40,976 bases of DNA. It comes from an uncultured Moraxellaceae bacterium. GTDB lineage: Bacteria; Pseudomonadota; Gammaproteobacteria; Pseudomonadales; Moraxellaceae. The stretch is from positions 1 to 40,976 of the forward strand of contig CAJXOR010000011.1 in assembly GCA_913057715.1 (NCBI GenBank), read 5' to 3'. A program made the translations under genes and the position numbers. Positions within the stretch are counted from its first letter, which is position 1. Each line of letters starts with the position of its first letter. The notes beneath the pieces were generated by a model. That model worked only from the letters and a program-made list of their open reading frames with translations. It ran no database searches and was not told where the DNA came from. Below are positions 10,425-28,759 of this stretch, piece by piece.

Positions 10425-11519
10425 TTATGGGGCTAATTTAATAGGGCTAGCATTTGGTAAATTTTGAATTGAAGATTTTAAATTAGTCATCCGTCCGAAC
10501 CACTTAATCATGTCATCTTTTATATAGTCTAGCTCAGCAGACAAATCATACTTGTTCAATATATATCGAGAGTCTTTATTTAGTACTACGTCCATGTTAG
10601 ATAAATCTACAAGCTTTAAATATTCTATAGAGTTAGAATCGCGACCGAATAATGTGAGTTCCCAACCTTGAGGTGAAATATGAAGATCGAACGCTATTAA
10701 ATTTCCACAAATATTATAATCATGAACCAAGCAAAATTTGGAGTATATCCATTGCCTTTCGCAATCCTCTGGCTTTTGAATTAGATCAGATAAATTTCTA
10801 ATTTTTTTATTTAATTTCGCGATGAAATTATTTCTTGATTTTATTATCGAATTTACTCTTTCTTCATTTTCTATAAAAAATTGATCTATTTTATTTATTT
10901 CCATTTTTTTTCCACTTAATTTATGAATGGTACTCAAGAAGTCGATGAGATATAAAATCCACTTCTGAGAAGATGTAGTAATATACATACCTATATTTTC
11001 ATTGATCTTCGCAATAAAGTCTTCATATTTGACACAAATAAAACCTGAATTATTTGTTTCTTTTTTTATGCTAAGTACTATTTTTAAAGTATCTAAATTA
11101 TTTGGCTTAGCCCAATCATCAATTGATTTACTATAGTCATCGAGATTATTGTTGAGATGATGAAATATCTTATTTTCAATACCTATAATTTGGTTGTCAG
11201 TTTCAATAACTATATCAATCCTACCGCCATTATTTGTTGATACTTCTCGACTTACTTGAAAGTTTTCTTGCTGAACCTCAACACCACCAGTAAGATTAAT
11301 TAACGAGGTTAAAAGTAAGCCACCCAAGCCATGTTCATTATTTGGATTAAGGTAGAATGCTAAAATATTGCTAATCACATTTTCATAATGAGGGTATCCG
11401 GCAATCTCAAAAATACTTTCACTTTCTTTATTGTCTGGAAGCGACTCAAAATCATGAAGTATCGCCAGAAAATCATCATAAATATTATTATTGTTATCTC
11501 TTTGAATGCTAGCGCCCAT
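10425..11519 (-). CDS. PD-(D/E)XK nuclease superfamily protein (PDDEXK_4 type)
   Basis: 364 residues. The nuclease core is visible: NVISNILAFYLNPNNEHGLG (residues 48-67), which is the helix and HG motif typical of the PDDEXK_4 family (usually DPNxxHGLG). It is followed by RIDIVI with D102 and IGIENKI with E115 and K117, the D...ExK metal-binding active site. The C-terminal 200 residues are a lysine- and asparagine-rich region with no recognised domain. Known members of this superfamily cut DNA, and several are linked to restriction or defence, but this family has no fixed function. The ATG has a strong ribosome site (AGAGAGG). The gene is much richer in A and T than its neighbours, which suggests acquisition. 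It is followed by two small membrane-protein genes on the same strand. Confidence 0.85.
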   Translation of the reverse strand: MGASIQRDNNNNIYDDFLAILHDFESLPDNKESESIFEIAGYPHYENVISNILAFYLNPNNEHGLGGLLLTSLINLTGGVEVQQENFQVSREVSTNNGGRIDIVIETDNQIIGIENKIFHHLNNNLDDYSKSIDDWAKPNNLDTLKIVLSIKKETNNSGFICVKYEDFIAKINENIGMYITTSSQKWILYLIDFLSTIHKLSGKKMEINKIDQFFIENEERVNSIIKSRNNFIAKLNKKIRNLSDLIQKPEDCERQWIYSKFCLVHDYNICGNLIAFDLHISPQGWELTLFGRDSNSIEYLKLVDLSNMDVVLNKDSRYILNKYDLSAELDYIKDDMIKWFGRMTNLKSSIQNLPNASPIKLAP

Positions 11520-15286: not shown

Positions 15287-15940
15287 ATGACTCAAACTCA
15301 CCTGCTCGATCAACCTGCTCGAAACTTCTATAAACCCCTGATCAGTGTGCTCGTGCTCTTTGCACTGATTGGTATCGTCTCATCCTTAAACCAAGACGAC
15401 TGGGTCGCCTACTCTTTGCACCAGATCAGTACGGTGGCGGCGATCGCGGGGCTGCTGCTGGTGATTCACCAGTTTCGCGCGCGTCTGATCAGCACGATCA
15501 TGGCCAGCGCCTTTGTGGTGATCCACATGATCGGCGCCGCTTACCTCTACTCCTACGTGCCCTACAACGAGGTAGTTCTCTCGCTCACTGGTTTCAACAT
15601 CGACCAAAGCTTTGGTTTCGAGCGCAACATGTACGACCGCTTAGTACACTTCAGCTACGGACTGCTGCTCTACCCGCTCATGAGCGACGCCTATCGAAGC
15701 CTATATAAAATCGCGGGACTGGCGCTGGTGTGGGCGGTGCTCATGACCAACATGGCCGGCTCCATGCTCTATGAGGTGATCGAGTGGCAGATCGGGGTGA
15801 ACTTCTCAGAGGGGTCAGCAAAGAACTACAACGGTCAGCAAGGCGACATCTGGGATGCCCAAAAGGACATGCTGATCGCGCTGGTGGGCGGCGGACTTGG
15901 CGCGCTTATCCCTAGATTCAGACAAGCCAAAAACCAGTAA
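15287..15940 (+). CDS. DUF2238 (YjdF-type) inner-membrane protein
   Basis: 217 residues, about six membrane helices. Family marks are RNMYDRLVHFSYGLLLYPL (charged residues inside the membrane region) and the C-terminal stretch MLYEVIEW followed by YNGQQGDIWDAQKDM, which matches the GDxWDxQxDM hallmark of the DUF2238/YjdF family. The molecular function of this family is not known to me. The conserved polar residues in helices suggest transport or a membrane enzyme. Single gene; the ATG has no obvious strong ribosome site. Convergent with the GalE-like gene, with only a weak stem (AGCCGC/GCGGCT, 15953-15988) between them. Confidence 0.85.
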   Translation: MTQTHLLDQPARNFYKPLISVLVLFALIGIVSSLNQDDWVAYSLHQISTVAAIAGLLLVIHQFRARLISTIMASAFVVIHMIGAAYLYSYVPYNEVVLSLTGFNIDQSFGFERNMYDRLVHFSYGLLLYPLMSDAYRSLYKIAGLALVWAVLMTNMAGSMLYEVIEWQIGVNFSEGSAKNYNGQQGDIWDAQKDMLIALVGGGLGALIPRFRQAKNQ

Positions 15941-16139: not shown

Positions 16140-17123
16140 CTAACGAGGCTGCTCCTGGAGCGAGAAGGCCATAGCGTCTTCACAGATGCGCTGCAGATCC
16201 AGTTTCGGCTCCCACTTAAGCACCTCGTGCGCGTGCGAGATATCGGCGATGCGGCGCAAGTCCGATAAAGTTTCTGGCAACTTGAGATCAACCGGTTTAC
16301 CGCTGGCCAGCTCCATGGCGTCTGCAATCTGCTGCCAGCTAACTGCCTCACCGCTACCGATGTTGAAGCAATCAAAACTCTGATCAACGCTATGCAGGTA
16401 GGCCAGCGCTTGCAGGTTAGCCTCTACAGCATCGTCGATGTGAAGCATGTCGATCTGACGAGTGAGCGCCTGCTCATCGAACAAAAAACTCAGCGCATCG
16501 ACCGTCCCGCCGGTGTTAGCCGCATGGGTAAACACCGGCATGATCCGGTTAGACATACACTTAGGGTGTTCACCAATCAGGTGTGTGGCGTCAGCGCCGC
16601 CAAGCTCAAAGTAGCGCATGATCGCAATCCGCCAGTTATCCTGCTTATCCAGATCGCTCATGATTTGCTCGCATACATCGAAACTACGCGCCAAGGGGCC
16701 GGGCGGATCTATCTCGCTCAGCTCGCTGAGTTTGTCTGTCCCTGCACCGAGCACGTGGGAGCAGGAACCGTAAACCAGCGTGTTGATCCCCGAGCGACTC
16801 ATCGCCCGAAGCAAGCTCAGCACGCCGCCGACGTTTGAGTTGTAGGCCTCAAGTGGGCTTGGGTTGCTACTTGGGTTCATGCCAGCCAAGTGCACCACCG
16901 CGCTGACTCGGTACTGATCAAAAATTCGCTGCAGCGCAGGTGTGTTACGGATGTCTTGGTGAACATAAGTCACCACCCGACCCACGATTTGCTCAAGTCG
17001 CTCAAGCATAAAAAGTTTGGAGTTGAACTGATTGTCGATCAGCACGACTTCGTGGTTTTCTTTGAGCAGCTTGGCTGCCGTATGCAGGCCGATGTAACCC
17101 AGACCGCCGGTTATCGCTATCAT
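16140..17123 (-). CDS. GalE-like SDR protein lacking the catalytic residues
   Basis: 327 residues with the overall plan of an extended short-chain dehydrogenase, closest to UDP-glucose 4-epimerase. The NAD-binding loop TGGLGYIG (residues 5-12), DNQFNSK (30-36), DIRN (57-60) and VVHLAGMN (76-83) are intact. The catalytic region is not. Aligned with E. coli GalE, the SSSATVYG stretch reads SCSHVLG, so the catalytic serine is Cys. The YxxxK pair in SPYGKSK becomes GPLARSF, so Tyr is L144 and Lys is F148. RYFNPVGA becomes RYFELGGA, removing the sugar-binding Asn. The flanking helix (CEQIMSDL) aligns well, so this is substitution and not misalignment. It may bind nucleotide or nucleotide sugar without epimerising it, or act on another substrate. 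A purine-rich site (AAGAGA) precedes the ATG. It is divergent from tusD. The frame is open over full length, so it is not an obvious pseudogene. Confidence 0.85.
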   Translation of the reverse strand: MIAITGGLGYIGLHTAAKLLKENHEVVLIDNQFNSKLFMLERLEQIVGRVVTYVHQDIRNTPALQRIFDQYRVSAVVHLAGMNPSSNPSPLEAYNSNVGGVLSLLRAMSRSGINTLVYGSCSHVLGAGTDKLSELSEIDPPGPLARSFDVCEQIMSDLDKQDNWRIAIMRYFELGGADATHLIGEHPKCMSNRIMPVFTHAANTGGTVDALSFLFDEQALTRQIDMLHIDDAVEANLQALAYLHSVDQSFDCFNIGSGEAVSWQQIADAMELASGKPVDLKLPETLSDLRRIADISHAHEVLKWEPKLDLQRICEDAMAFSLQEQPR

Positions 17124-17381
17124 GTTTTTTATCTCTTATAAAATTTGGTGTCGCCATCCTTGGCGCTCACTTATTATTAGACCATTTTTACTTAAGTTTC
17201 TGGCTTATCCACCAATCAGTCGCAAAACCCCATCGCGATGCCCACAGCGACTTACACTTTGTAAAATCATCAACCCAGCCCTTGCGCAGCATATCCCATC
17301 AAATGTCGCCGCTAGCCAGCATCAAGCGAAAGCTCACTTCAGCTTAACTGCTCAGACATGATAAAAGGTTAGCAGCTTAGG

Positions 17382-17387
17382 TATAAT
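17382..17387 (+). promoter_or_regulatory. Probable -10 box of the tus operon
   Basis: A consensus TATAAT lies 28 bases before the tusD ATG in the 292-base gap that separates tusD from the divergent GalE-like gene. No good -35 is seen. Confidence 0.5.
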
Positions 17388-17415
17388 TGGTTTTTTATCT
17401 CTGATTGGCCCTGTT

Positions 17416-17796
17416 ATGCGCCTCGGACTTATCTTGACCCAGCGATCGCTGGCAACGCAGCAGATTGCGCTGGCCGAAGAAGCACTGAGCTCGGTTGAGC
17501 TTGAGGTGTTTTTTTATCAAGACGCGGCCATGTTGGCCCTAAACTCAATCTTTGAGCCCAGATTGAACTTGATCCAGCGTCGCTGGCAAGGACTTAACAA
17601 ATCGCACGGCTTAACTTTATCTGTCTGCGTGGCTTCAGCACTGGCGCGAGGTGTCACCGATCCAGCGAACTCCCAAAGACACGGCCTACTCAGCTCTGAT
17701 CAACCGATCGACACCCTGCTTCCCGGCTTTGAGCTTTGCGGTCTGGGCGCTCTGCATGAGATTGCTGAGCGCTGTGATCGGTTGGTGAGCCTGTGA
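17416..17796 (+). CDS. tusD: Sulfur relay protein TusD
   Basis: Catalytic subunit of the cytoplasmic TusBCD complex. It receives persulfide sulfur from TusA and hands it to TusE, for 2-thiolation of wobble uridine in tRNA for Lys, Glu and Gln by MnmA. 126 residues, the usual DsrE-like length. The active cysteine is C71 in LSVCVASALARGV, which corresponds to Cys78 of E. coli TusD. Its last codons overlap the GTG start of tusC by four bases (GTGA), showing coupling. An ATG start is used with little ribosome-site signal. Confidence 0.93.
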   Translation: MRLGLILTQRSLATQQIALAEEALSSVELEVFFYQDAAMLALNSIFEPRLNLIQRRWQGLNKSHGLTLSVCVASALARGVTDPANSQRHGLLSSDQPIDTLLPGFELCGLGALHEIAERCDRLVSL

Positions 17797-18083
17797 CTGC
17801 GCCTCATGTGAACGCGCCTAAGCAGTACCTTGTGATCCTGCGTCAGTGCGATGAGCTCTTGATCAGTGAGGGCATACAAGCCGCGATGATCTTTGCCTCG
17901 TTCGGTGAGTCTGTAGCGCTGGCTTACAGCGTTGAGTGCAGCGGTCTGATCAATCAAACCGGAACCCACGTCGCTAAGCTGATCAGCAGCCTAGAGTTTT
18001 ACGACATCGAAGCTCCCCTCGAGCTAAACCATGAGCTGAGCGAGCTTAACTTTGGGCAGTTTCAACAGGTGCTGAGTTTTTAA
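17793..18083 (+). CDS. tusC: Sulfur relay protein TusC
   Basis: DsrF-like structural subunit of the TusBCD heterohexamer. 96 residues, slightly shorter than the E. coli protein (119). It has the DsrE-like fold pattern, with the helix SEGIQAAMIFASFGESVALAYS, but no obvious catalytic cysteine is needed in this subunit. It starts at GTG inside the tusD stop (four-base GTGA overlap) and is followed by tusB after one base. Identification rests on position and length as much as on sequence. Confidence 0.85.
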   Translation: MTAPHVNAPKQYLVILRQCDELLISEGIQAAMIFASFGESVALAYSVECSGLINQTGTHVAKLISSLEFYDIEAPLELNHELSELNFGQFQQVLSF

Positions 18084-18084
18084 C

Positions 18085-18378
18085 ATGACCCTATACCAGC
18101 TAAGCAGCCGCGCCTGCCACCAACCAACCACTTTAGAGCTGCTCAGCCGCCAGCATCAAATCGGTGACGCTGTCTTGATCCTTGAGCCGCTTAGCGACGC
18201 TCAGTTGGTTGAACTTCAGGCTCGGCTTTGTGAGTTTGATTGCTACCAACTGGCGCCATCAGACGATAGCCTTACCCAGTCAGGCAACCAGCATCCAGCA
18301 GCCTCGGTGATTAAAACGCTATCAACTAAGGGGTGGCTGGAGTTGATCGCACGTGCTGATCGGACGGTAACCTTATGA
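18085..18378 (+). CDS. tusB: Sulfur relay protein TusB
   Basis: DsrH-like subunit of TusBCD, 97 residues. It begins MTLYQLSSRA and has the short GDAVLILE strand typical of the family. In the same operon as tusD and tusC. Its stop codon overlaps an ATG (ATGA) that opens a 25-codon reading frame running exactly to the tusE start. Confidence 0.88.
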   Translation: MTLYQLSSRACHQPTTLELLSRQHQIGDAVLILEPLSDAQLVELQARLCEFDCYQLAPSDDSLTQSGNQHPAASVIKTLSTKGWLELIARADRTVTL

Positions 18379-18452
18379 GCTCAGAGGTAGGGCAATTGAT
18401 CTACGATTGCTCATCTAGCGGCGGCATTTATGGTTTTAGGAGGCAGGCGTGA
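18375..18452 (+). CDS. 25-residue coupled micro-ORF between tusB and tusE
   Basis: Starts at ATG inside the tusB stop (ATGA overlap at 18375-18378) and ends at TGA overlapping the tusE GTG start (GTGA at 18449-18452). The peptide begins MSSEVGQLIY and ends GGIYGFRRQA, with one Cys at residue 12. The strong AGGAGG that serves tusE lies inside its last codons. Two readings fit: a small translated gene, or a leader whose translation couples tusB to tusE so the ribosome reaches the tusE start. I see nothing that decides between them. Confidence 0.45.
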   Translation: MSSEVGQLIYDCSSSGGIYGFRRQA

Positions 18453-18769
18453 GAGCTGCGCTCGATTTGGATCAAGATGGACACCTAAAGGACCCCGCTA
18501 ACTGGGATGAGTTGAGCGCCGAGCAGTTGGCACTGACTTTAGAGGTGACTTTGACGCCGGTTCACTGGCAGATCTTAGAGGCCACCCGCCAGTTTTACGC
18601 TGACTTTGATCACATACCCAGAACTCGGCCCTTTGTGAAGTATCTGCAAAGTGCGCTGCCTGAGCTTGAGCTCACCAACGCTGAGCTCCAAAAACTTTTT
18701 AACACTGGGGTTACGGTCCGCGAGATTGCGCGGGTTGCTGGACTGCCAAAACCTGCGCACTGTTTATGA
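18449..18769 (+). CDS. tusE: Sulfur carrier TusE (DsrC family)
   Basis: Accepts sulfur from TusD and passes it to MnmA for tRNA 2-thiouridine synthesis. 106 residues. Family marks are LTPVHWQILEATRQFYADF in the middle, TRPFVKYL, and the swinging C-terminal arm GLPKPAHCL with the penultimate cysteine C105 that carries the persulfide. The second, upstream cysteine of true dissimilatory DsrC proteins is absent, so this is the tRNA-modification type. GTG start after a strong AGGAGG. Last gene of the tus operon. Confidence 0.92.
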   Translation: MRAALDLDQDGHLKDPANWDELSAEQLALTLEVTLTPVHWQILEATRQFYADFDHIPRTRPFVKYLQSALPELELTNAELQKLFNTGVTVREIARVAGLPKPAHCL

Positions 18770-27124: not shown

Positions 27125-28759
27125 ATGCCCGATATCGCCCTCGCAGGTAGCGCAGGCTCCCCCATCACGCTCAAAGCTCGCATGGCCAACCGCCACGGTT
27201 TGATCGCAGGGGCGACCGGAACCGGCAAAACCTTTACGCTCAAACTCTTGGCCGAGCAGTTTTCAGCCGCAGGCGTGCCGGTGTTTTTAGCCGACGTTAA
27301 AGGCGACTTATCTAGCCTTGCCAAAACCGGTGAAATGTCGACCAAGCTCAGTGAGCGCTTAAGCAAACTTAACCTTCCTGAACCTGCTTTTAGTGCTTAC
27401 CCAACCCTTTTTTGGGATGTTTACGGCGAGCAAGGTCACCCGGTTCGCACTACTTTAAGTGAGATGGGACCCCTGATCTTAAGTGAGCTCTTGGGGCTCA
27501 ACGACACCCAAACCGGCGTGATCAACATCGTTTTCCGCGTCGCAGACGACAACGGCTGGTTGCTGCTGGATCTGGATGATCTGCGCACCCTGCTGGCCTA
27601 CGTCTCCGATCACAAAAGTGAACTACAAACCACTTACGGCTCGGTTTCACCTGCTTCGGTTGGTGCAATCCAGCGATCGCTGCTCAGTTTAGAGGATCAA
27701 GGAGCACGGGAGTTTTTTGGCGAACCTGCTTTAAGCCTAGATGACTTCATGCAAACCGACACCGATGGGCGCGGGTATATCTCGGTGCTGGCAACCAGCA
27801 AGCTCATGCTCAACCCCAAACTCTACAGCTGCTTTTTGCTGTGGATGCTGAGCGAGATCTTTGAGCTGTTACCTGAAGTGGGTGATCTCGATAAACCAAA
27901 ACTGGTCTTTTTCTTTGATGAGGCGCATCTGTTGTTTGAAAACATCAATCCGGCGCTTGAGCAAAAGATTGAGCAAGTGGTTCGTCTGATCCGCTCAAAA
28001 GGCGTTGGGATCTACTTTGTGACCCAAACCCCGGCCGACATACCAGACGATGTGCTGGGTCAGTTGGGTAATCGCGTGCAGCATGCACTGCGCGCTTTTA
28101 CCCCGCGCGATCAAAAAGCCGTCAAAGTGGCCGCGCAAACTTTTCGAGCCAATCCTGATCTGGATACCGAAACCGCGATCATGGAGCTTGGGGTGGGTGA
28201 GGCGTTGATCAGCTGCCTAGATGAAAAAGGCTCACCTAGCATGGTTCAGCGCGCGTGGATGCGCGCTCCCGGCTCAGCCTTTAGTCCGATCAGCGAGACT
28301 GAGCGCGCGCAGCTCATGGCAACCAGCATCGTTGCTGGTGCTTACGATGAGCCAATTAACCGCGAAAGCGCTCATGAGATCTTAAGTTTAAAAACCGAAC
28401 AAGCACAGGCTGAGGCAGTGTTGGCACAAAAGCAGATTGAAGAGCAAAAACTCAAGGAAGCTGCTGAAGCGGATCAGCTCAAAGCTGAGGCCAAGGCAGC
28501 GATAGAGCTTGAAAAAGCGCAGCTTAGGGCTGAAGCTGATGCGGCGCGAGCCGCCTTGAAAGAAGCGCAAGATCGCGCCAAAGCTGCCCAGAAAAAAGCA
28601 GATGAAGAAGCTAAGGCCGCTCAGAAAAAGTCAGACGAGCGCGCTAAGCTACTTAACCGCGTGGTTGGTAACTTCGCTTCGAGTGCGGCCAGATCGCTTG
28701 GCTCTAAGACGGGTCAGACCTTGCTTCGGGGCGTTTTGGGGTCACTGCTTAAGCGTTGA
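27125..28759 (+). CDS. yjgR: DUF853/YjgR-type HerA-like ATPase
   Basis: 544 residues. A P-loop ATPase related to HerA helicases. The Walker A motif is GATGTGKT (residues 29-36) and the Walker B motif is [12 protein letters not shown] near residue 260. [19 protein letters not shown] follows, and the conserved arginine region [14 protein letters not shown] is near residue 320. The last 130 residues (about 415-515) are an Ala/Glu/Lys-rich coiled coil, ending in a glycine-serine-rich tail. The cellular role of YjgR is not known; a DNA or protein translocating ATPase is a reasonable guess. ATG with AAGG upstream. Divergent from ccoS and convergent with the DUF21/CBS gene. Confidence 0.9.

Follow-up and report, generated by a model that had tools for sequence, protein, structure and literature searches.

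The GalE-like gene beside the tus operon

The DNA analysed here (the window) is a stretch of 40,976 nucleotides from an uncultured Moraxellaceae bacterium, positions 1 to 40,976 of contig CAJXOR010000011.1 in assembly GCA_913057715.1. It carries a gene for a protein related to UDP-glucose 4-epimerase (GalE), divergent from the first gene of the tus operon. The features to which we refer below are as follows.

16140..17123, minus strand: GalE-like gene, 327 codons from ATG to stop, no internal stop
16761..16763, minus strand: C121 codon, which aligns with Ser124 of GalE
16692..16694, minus strand: L144 codon (read from the sequence), which aligns with the catalytic Tyr149
16680..16682, minus strand: F148 codon (read from the sequence), which aligns with the catalytic Lys153
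16605..16607, minus strand: E173 codon, which aligns with the substrate residue Asn179
17124..17415, no strand: upstream region common to the divergent GalE-like gene and tusD
17416..17796, plus strand: tusD (Pfam DsrE), which opens the tus operon for 2-thiouridine sulfur relay
17793..18083, plus strand: probable tusC, assigned by position and matching the tusD-tusE interval of loci L071 and L115; no Pfam match
18085..18378, plus strand: probable tusB, assigned by position; no Pfam match
18449..18769, plus strand: tusE, DsrC-like (Pfam DsrC)
15287..15940, plus strand: gene encoding a DUF2238 membrane protein (Pfam), across the GalE-like gene from tusD

The initial annotation described the reading frame as intact, and we agree. 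A first-order Markov model of the same DNA predicts a mean of 11.7 in-frame stops over the GalE-like frame, and none of 2000 sequences drawn from the model was free of stops. The synonymous codon preference of the frame (0.113) lies among those of the 14 other scored window genes (0.043 to 0.196), and the other five frames of the same DNA give values from -0.117 to 0.043.

The region shared by the two divergent genes contains a sigma-70-like match at 17358-17387 pointing to tusD, and sigma-70-like matches in 17124..17415 show no excess over shuffled sequence. The window TusD scores about 69-70 bits with TIGR03012, below the cut-off of 89, and is the weakest of 39 TusD matches, a hint that the whole locus may evolve fast in the window lineage. 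On the far side of the GalE-like gene the window has the DUF2238 gene, a place that is occupied by fumC in an Acinetobacter locus (L070) and in a g10 locus (L033). Elsewhere in the window are a HerA-like helicase gene (27125-28759; PF05872, 719 bits) and a gene for a PD-(D/E)XK nuclease family protein (10425-11519; PDDEXK_4, NCBIfam match absent). Anti-phage models gave no match to the GalE-like protein.

Fold and residues of the window protein

The protein is a full-length homologue of GalE. The Pfam Epimerase model (PF01370) matches residues 2-256 with 108 bits, and the galE model TIGR01179 matches residues 2-322 with 190.4 bits, which does not reach its curated cut-off of 262.3. The Acinetobacter nosocomialis orthologue L070, the single one from that genus to be scored, lies above this cut-off at 271.2 bits. 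By sequence, GalE structures are the best solved relatives of the window protein. An AlphaFold2 model built with 47 aligned sequences has a mean pLDDT of 90.7 and a pTM of 0.92, and in Foldseek its best TM score to solved GalE structures is about 0.9. PDB entries for GalE include 7kn1, 3enk and E. coli 1nah. Since GalE proteins were part of the alignment given to the program, the model indicates that the sequence is compatible with the fold and is not independent proof of it. The glycine-rich loop TGGLGYIG (GxxGxxG), the acidic Asp30 for NAD and the Rossmann-type model place the protein in the extended SDR fold superfamily. These results agree with the claim made in the initial annotation that the NAD loop and the GalE fold are retained over the full length.

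Residues were compared in an alignment that joins the window protein to 29 members of the tus-linked group, the GalE encoded by the host and E. coli GalE. The E. coli sequence used is one that we take to be the reference, and its letters fall on the expected catalytic residues. At the positions of Ser124, Tyr149, Lys153 and Asn179 of GalE the window protein has C121, L144, F148 and E173, exactly the replacements first noticed in the sequence. It also has Asn for Lys84, Ser for Asn99, Arg for Asn199 and Ile for Arg231. In the portions of PMC6668579 on which we draw, where numbering is one higher, these four residues are described as contacting NAD or the UDP-sugar, the E. coli triad is described as catalytically important on the basis of mutagenesis, and the triad lysine is described as contacting and holding the nicotinamide ribose. 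The UDP-sugar contacts Asn179, Asn199, Arg231, Arg292 and Asp295 read Glu, Arg, Ile, gap and Asp in the window protein, so that one of the five is kept; at Arg292 a gap stands in one alignment and Thr in another. Residues that remain are the glycine loop, Asp31, Asn32, Asn35, Ser36, Asp58, Ala81, Ser123, Tyr177 and Asp295. The cofactor site has thus kept most of its adenosine half and lost most of its catalytic half. A separate GalE with Ser, Tyr, Lys and Asn all present is encoded on another contig of the host genome (C66:9430-10425).

The losses extend beyond the active site. Among 55 columns conserved at 90% or more in 46 other sequences, the window protein retains 37 and has lost 18; nine of those 46 sequences, compared in the same way, keep 51 to 55 (0-4 lost). 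All four of the conserved pocket residues are lost, against 14 of the 51 other conserved columns (Fisher p 0.009, for a set picked after the alignment had been seen); the same test over the literature contact columns gives p 0.08. In all five regions of the protein the window copy is less like each of three references than is L003. Residues 171-240 are the most consistent region of lower likeness (sign p 0.0003 to 0.03) and others show it too; a clean regional pattern of faster evolution is therefore not claimed.

An alignment shift that restores Tyr and Lys, which had been named as a way in which the finding could be mistaken, was examined and ruled out. Residues 95 to 241 contain no Tyr except Y118 and Y171, and residues 101 to 180 no Lys except K131 and K160; with none within reach, no shift restores a YxxxK motif. 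The block from Tyr149 to Lys153 is free of gaps. The description of the alignment as gapless holds beside the motif and fails over the full length, where the window protein has small deletions relative to E. coli GalE at 86-87, 219-221 and 291-293 and single ones at 135, 145, 168 and 300, the exact places depending on the alignment.

The tus-linked group in Moraxellaceae

A search of the host genome and 57 relatives, which outside the family took in a single genome from each of 21 further families of the order, gave a match in 55 of the 58, with a higher-scoring set that stands apart from ordinary GalE. The wider searches covered 348 Moraxellaceae genomes and, with an alignment as query, the named genomes, where at least 80 loci were returned; a scan of the named genomes with a single sequence confirmed no relative. 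The tus-linked GalE-like group has so far been seen only in Moraxellaceae. Of the matches listed from named genomes, 43 lie outside Acinetobacter when the g12-type L074 is set aside, and every one of them carries Lys at position 153 (E. coli numbering, here and below).

Within Acinetobacter (coded g15; G118:C1, for example, is A. nosocomialis CP107049.1) we read 160 proteins, 119, 19 and 22 from three sets of searches, and one more (G027) was added by eye, giving 161 of 175 genomes. Left out are G155, G156, G189, G195, G210 and G230, whose places were not listed, six genomes without the gene, G185, which is 65% complete and gave no match, and G186. Position 153 is Gln in 157 of the 160 and Leu in three; Lys occurs in none, and G027 has Gln. 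Tyr149, Asn179, Arg231 and Ser123 are present in 160/160 and Ser124 in 159/160, with Thr in one. The 36 named Acinetobacter loci among the matches listed, which overlap the 160, all have Gln at 153. In the other lysine-less lineages this position is Leu (g10, four genomes), Thr (g8, G007) and Phe (window). Apart from the window protein, the lysine-less relatives keep Ser124, Tyr149 and Asn179, so that of the four residues only Lys is gone. The initial annotation had asked whether L144 and F148 are conserved in orthologues; these two residues were seen in the window and in no other protein read.

The pocket of the lysine-less group is altered on both the nicotinamide side (Phe80, Ser122, Tyr177, Pro180) and the uracil side (Phe218, Arg292, Asp295). 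Among the lysine-less members compared, 26 of 26 have changed Phe80 and Pro180 and the majority have changed Ser122 and Tyr177; all 26, like the window protein, retain the glycine loop, Asp31, Asn32 and Asp58. At position 198, where GalE has Asn, at least 98% of the Acinetobacter proteins carry Lys, unlike the window protein, L004, L003 and L042; this is possibly a migrated lysine near the old sugar site.

tusD adjoins the GalE-like gene in the window, L003-L006, L010, L041-L045, L047 and L049-L065, and not in L046. Within 1.5 kb on each side of 22 Acinetobacter group loci, tusD was found in 16 and fumC in 20, and the order in A. nosocomialis L070 is tusE-B-C-D followed by the divergent GalE-like gene and fumC. 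Among the matches listed, tusD was found in the stretch of 32 of the 36 named Acinetobacter loci with the divergent Tus proteins of the window as queries, and one of the four other stretches ends at a contig end. In L077 and L078 tusD lies about 3 kb from the GalE-like gene; in L077 (Acinetobacter sp. ANC 3832) an amidohydrolase gene (L077:3936-5612) stands between them and an ORF of 464 aa, the length of fumC, is still downstream. This neighbourhood points to a possible tie of the GalE-like protein to the sulfur relay. A dependence of tus on the GalE-like gene was considered and is not supported, as tusD, found in 39 of 40 genomes tested, is kept where the GalE-like gene is absent. In six Acinetobacter genomes (G060, G062, G066, G083, G137, G201) the only match is an ordinary GalE, and there tusD directly adjoins fumC. 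Broken copies number two among the 160 read (L146 in G139; L166/L319 in G122). The gene is thus dispensable, being absent from 6 of 175 Acinetobacter genomes and broken in 2 of 160.

The initial annotation had named orthologues with intact Ser, Tyr and Lys in this neighbourhood as evidence against a pseudoenzyme, and such genes were found in part. Four g12 genomes (L042-L045) have Thr124, Tyr149, Lys153 and Asn179 in the gene beside tusD. In two g5 genomes (G004, L314; G019, L315) an ordinary GalE, in which Ser, Tyr, Lys and Asn are all present, is encoded divergently about 1.8 kb from tusD, with one gene between the two (an FGGY carbohydrate kinase gene in L314). Because g12 is a sister lineage, its lysine dates the loss, and the g5 copies fall with canonical GalE on the tree; a GalE gene has either reached this locus repeatedly or been replaced there. 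A Lys-bearing GalE of g12 type also occurs away from the tus operon in one Acinetobacter-coded genome (G186; loci L046 on G186:C29 and L316 on G186:C58), which could reflect a transfer or a foreign contig in the assembly.

In a tree of 67 proteins the tus-linked group forms one side of a branch (100/99) and the state of the lysine needs one change. Removal of the active-site columns leaves the lysine-less rows, the window protein included, together on one side of a branch (100/99), and the AU test rejects (p 0.008) a grouping of the window protein with the Lys-bearing tus proteins. Thr62, Pro63, Asn98, Arg109 and Arg113 are common to the window protein, L003, L004 and Acinetobacter and are absent from E. 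coli GalE and L042. The window protein thus has a residue other than Lys at 153, falls in the clade and neighbours tusD, the features by which we define the tus-linked lysine-less group. Its end branch, 2.03 changes per column, is the longest of the tree, so its place is taken with the usual caution. Most simply, Lys153 would have been lost once in a common ancestor; because the replacing residues differ by lineage (Gln or Leu, Leu, Thr, Phe), separate losses are possible.

Across Acinetobacter the median dN/dS is 0.045, with a 5-95% range of 0.024-0.092 over 192 non-independent pairs of dS 0.05-0.8 (Nei-Gojobori counts). This low ratio shows that the lysine-less form is maintained in that genus, though it can be lost. 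The window genus is represented by one genome, and maintenance there is argued from the intact frame, the codon usage and the retained fold.

Possible roles of the lysine-less proteins and their relation to known systems

We consider it reasonably probable that the GalE paralogue of the tus locus has become a non-epimerase, either a pseudoenzyme or a repurposed protein, with the window protein as its most derived member. As nearly all the relatives read are lysine-less and yet strongly conserved, the family is probably no longer a UDP-glucose 4-epimerase. In SDR enzymes the catalytic lysine lowers the pKa of the tyrosine. A protein that lacks the lysine which holds the nicotinamide ribose and lowers the Tyr pKa, and whose nicotinamide pocket is remodelled, should no longer be able to carry out the NAD-dependent epimerase cycle. 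Both changes would most simply predate the split between Acinetobacter, g8, g10 and the genus of the window. The folded protein that was kept would probably hold the adenosine end of a dinucleotide, and residual nucleotide binding by the lysine-less proteins can be expected from the residues that they retain. Outside the window lineage a small ligand probably occupies the retained Ser-Tyr-Asn-Arg pocket, and the proteins may act by binding, as nucleotide-dependent partners or regulators, and not through redox chemistry. The window lineage has lost the ligand pocket too, so that its protein, less constrained, could do no more than bind a nucleotide or serve as a scaffold.

The suggestion of a maintained pseudoenzyme made in the initial annotation finds support for the family as a whole, where the lysine is lost in the window, G007, the four g10 genomes and 161/161 Acinetobacter proteins read and dN/dS is low in Acinetobacter. 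Its details find no support, as Leu149 and Phe153 were seen in the window protein only and the lysine-less relatives keep Ser, Tyr and Asn. A role as UDP-sugar sensor is unlikely for the window copy because most UDP-sugar contacts are gone. Several observations sit less well with a non-epimerase that acts by binding: the conserved Ser-Tyr-Asn-Arg pocket of Acinetobacter fits new catalysis as well as binding, residue 153 differs by lineage, the gene is dispensable, tusD is kept without it, the window protein keeps Tyr177 and Asp295 of the old site, and its loss of 18 of 55 conserved columns would suit relaxed selection too. More specifically, and as a tentative proposal, the Acinetobacter protein between tus and fumC could be a non-redox binder dependent on NAD or ADP-ribose or a new Tyr-based enzyme, with the window protein as the end point at which the whole pocket is gone and the fold is kept. 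This proposal takes the lysine loss as ancestral and the nicotinamide and uracil pocket as rebuilt in a protein that the standard model scores as a UDP-glucose 4-epimerase, and it extends to nearly the whole of a medically important genus.

One alternative is that the window gene is under relaxed selection and heading for loss, the triple substitution being drift. It is suggested by the length of its end branch, by the 18 of 55 widely conserved columns that it has lost, by the losses and broken copies in some Acinetobacter and by the weakness of the window TusD (69 bits), which hints at a fast-evolving locus. Against it are the 327 intact codons where composition predicts 11.7 stops, the ordinary codon usage, the 37 of 55 conserved columns kept, the confident predicted fold and the concentration of losses in the pocket (4/4 against 14/51, with the post hoc choice of residues and the weaker p of the wider contact list noted above), and we regard relaxed selection as the less probable explanation. 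That the lysine-less proteins are enzymes of another reaction, with Tyr149 and Ser124 as acid and base, Gln in place of Lys, no hydride cycle and a different small ligand, seems to us rather unlikely. Such a reaction would account for the invariance of Tyr149, Asn179 and Arg231 and the near invariance of Ser124 in the 160 Acinetobacter proteins, for a position 153 that is not free to vary (Gln in 157/160) and for the low dN/dS; the joint change of the uracil-side contacts (Arg292, Asp295, Phe218) and the nicotinamide-side contacts is also what a new ligand would lead one to expect. However, the loss of Lys removes the contact to the nicotinamide ribose described in the cited portions of PMC6668579, and the window protein lacks both Ser and Tyr, so that it would have to represent a lineage that lost the new activity.

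We disfavour, as very improbable, an ordinary UDP-glucose 4-epimerase with unusual but tolerated residues. The full-length match, the fold and the passage of L070 over the curated galE cut-off (271 against 262 bits) are what such an enzyme would show, but in the window Ser, Tyr, Lys, Asn179, Arg231 and Lys84 are all replaced, the E. coli triad is reported to be important by mutagenesis (PMC6668579, in the portions cited) and every one of these residues is present in another GalE of the host. An error of sequencing or assembly, or a chance ORF, can hardly be the cause: the genome is a draft in 131 contigs, but the gene has several separate substitutions in an intact frame, its position next to tusD is conserved and its codon usage resembles that of other genes.

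If the lysine-less paralogue is a non-epimerase, as we prefer to think, the assignment of the Acinetobacter protein to GalE by TIGR01179 is, we think, wrong as to activity. As the curated model accepts L070, metabolic models of capsule and UDP-galactose may count a non-enzyme. In the portions of PMC12604733 on which we draw, two UDP-glucose 4-epimerases, their genes not named, are among the genes with impaired fitness in blood only. A full-text search, which covers few subscription papers, returned no paper on tus-linked or lysine-less GalE among the matches listed. The proteins of this one locus form a graded series, with Lys in g12, Gln or Leu, Leu and Thr with Ser and Tyr kept in Acinetobacter, g10 and g8, and all of these residues lost in the window, and the series is a natural experiment that follows an SDR as it gives up catalysis and shows which features stay.

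Compared with GalE as described by TIGR01179, the window protein has the full-length homology, the fold, the glycine-rich loop and the adenosine site of Asp31, Asn32 and Asp58 in common, whereas Ser, Tyr, Lys, Asn179, Arg231, Lys84 and Asn199 are replaced and the score is below the curated cut-off. The tus-linked Acinetobacter proteins share with it the tusD neighbour, the clade, the lost lysine, Thr62-Pro63, Asn98, Arg109 and Arg113; unlike it they keep Ser124, Tyr149, Asn179, Arg231 and Lys84, and they are usually followed by fumC (20/22 loci). The tus-linked GalE of g12 belongs to the same locus and orthologous group but has Tyr149, Lys153 and Asn179 intact, with Thr at 124, and it is probably still an epimerase. 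Loss of catalytic residues in the SDR fold is a known kind of event. Atypical SDRs and SDR pseudoenzymes such as NDUFA9, CSP41 and HSCARG/NMRAL1 have kept the Rossmann fold, lost catalytic residues and taken on binding roles; they belong to other SDR lineages, and the window protein resembles them in the first two features and may do so in the third.
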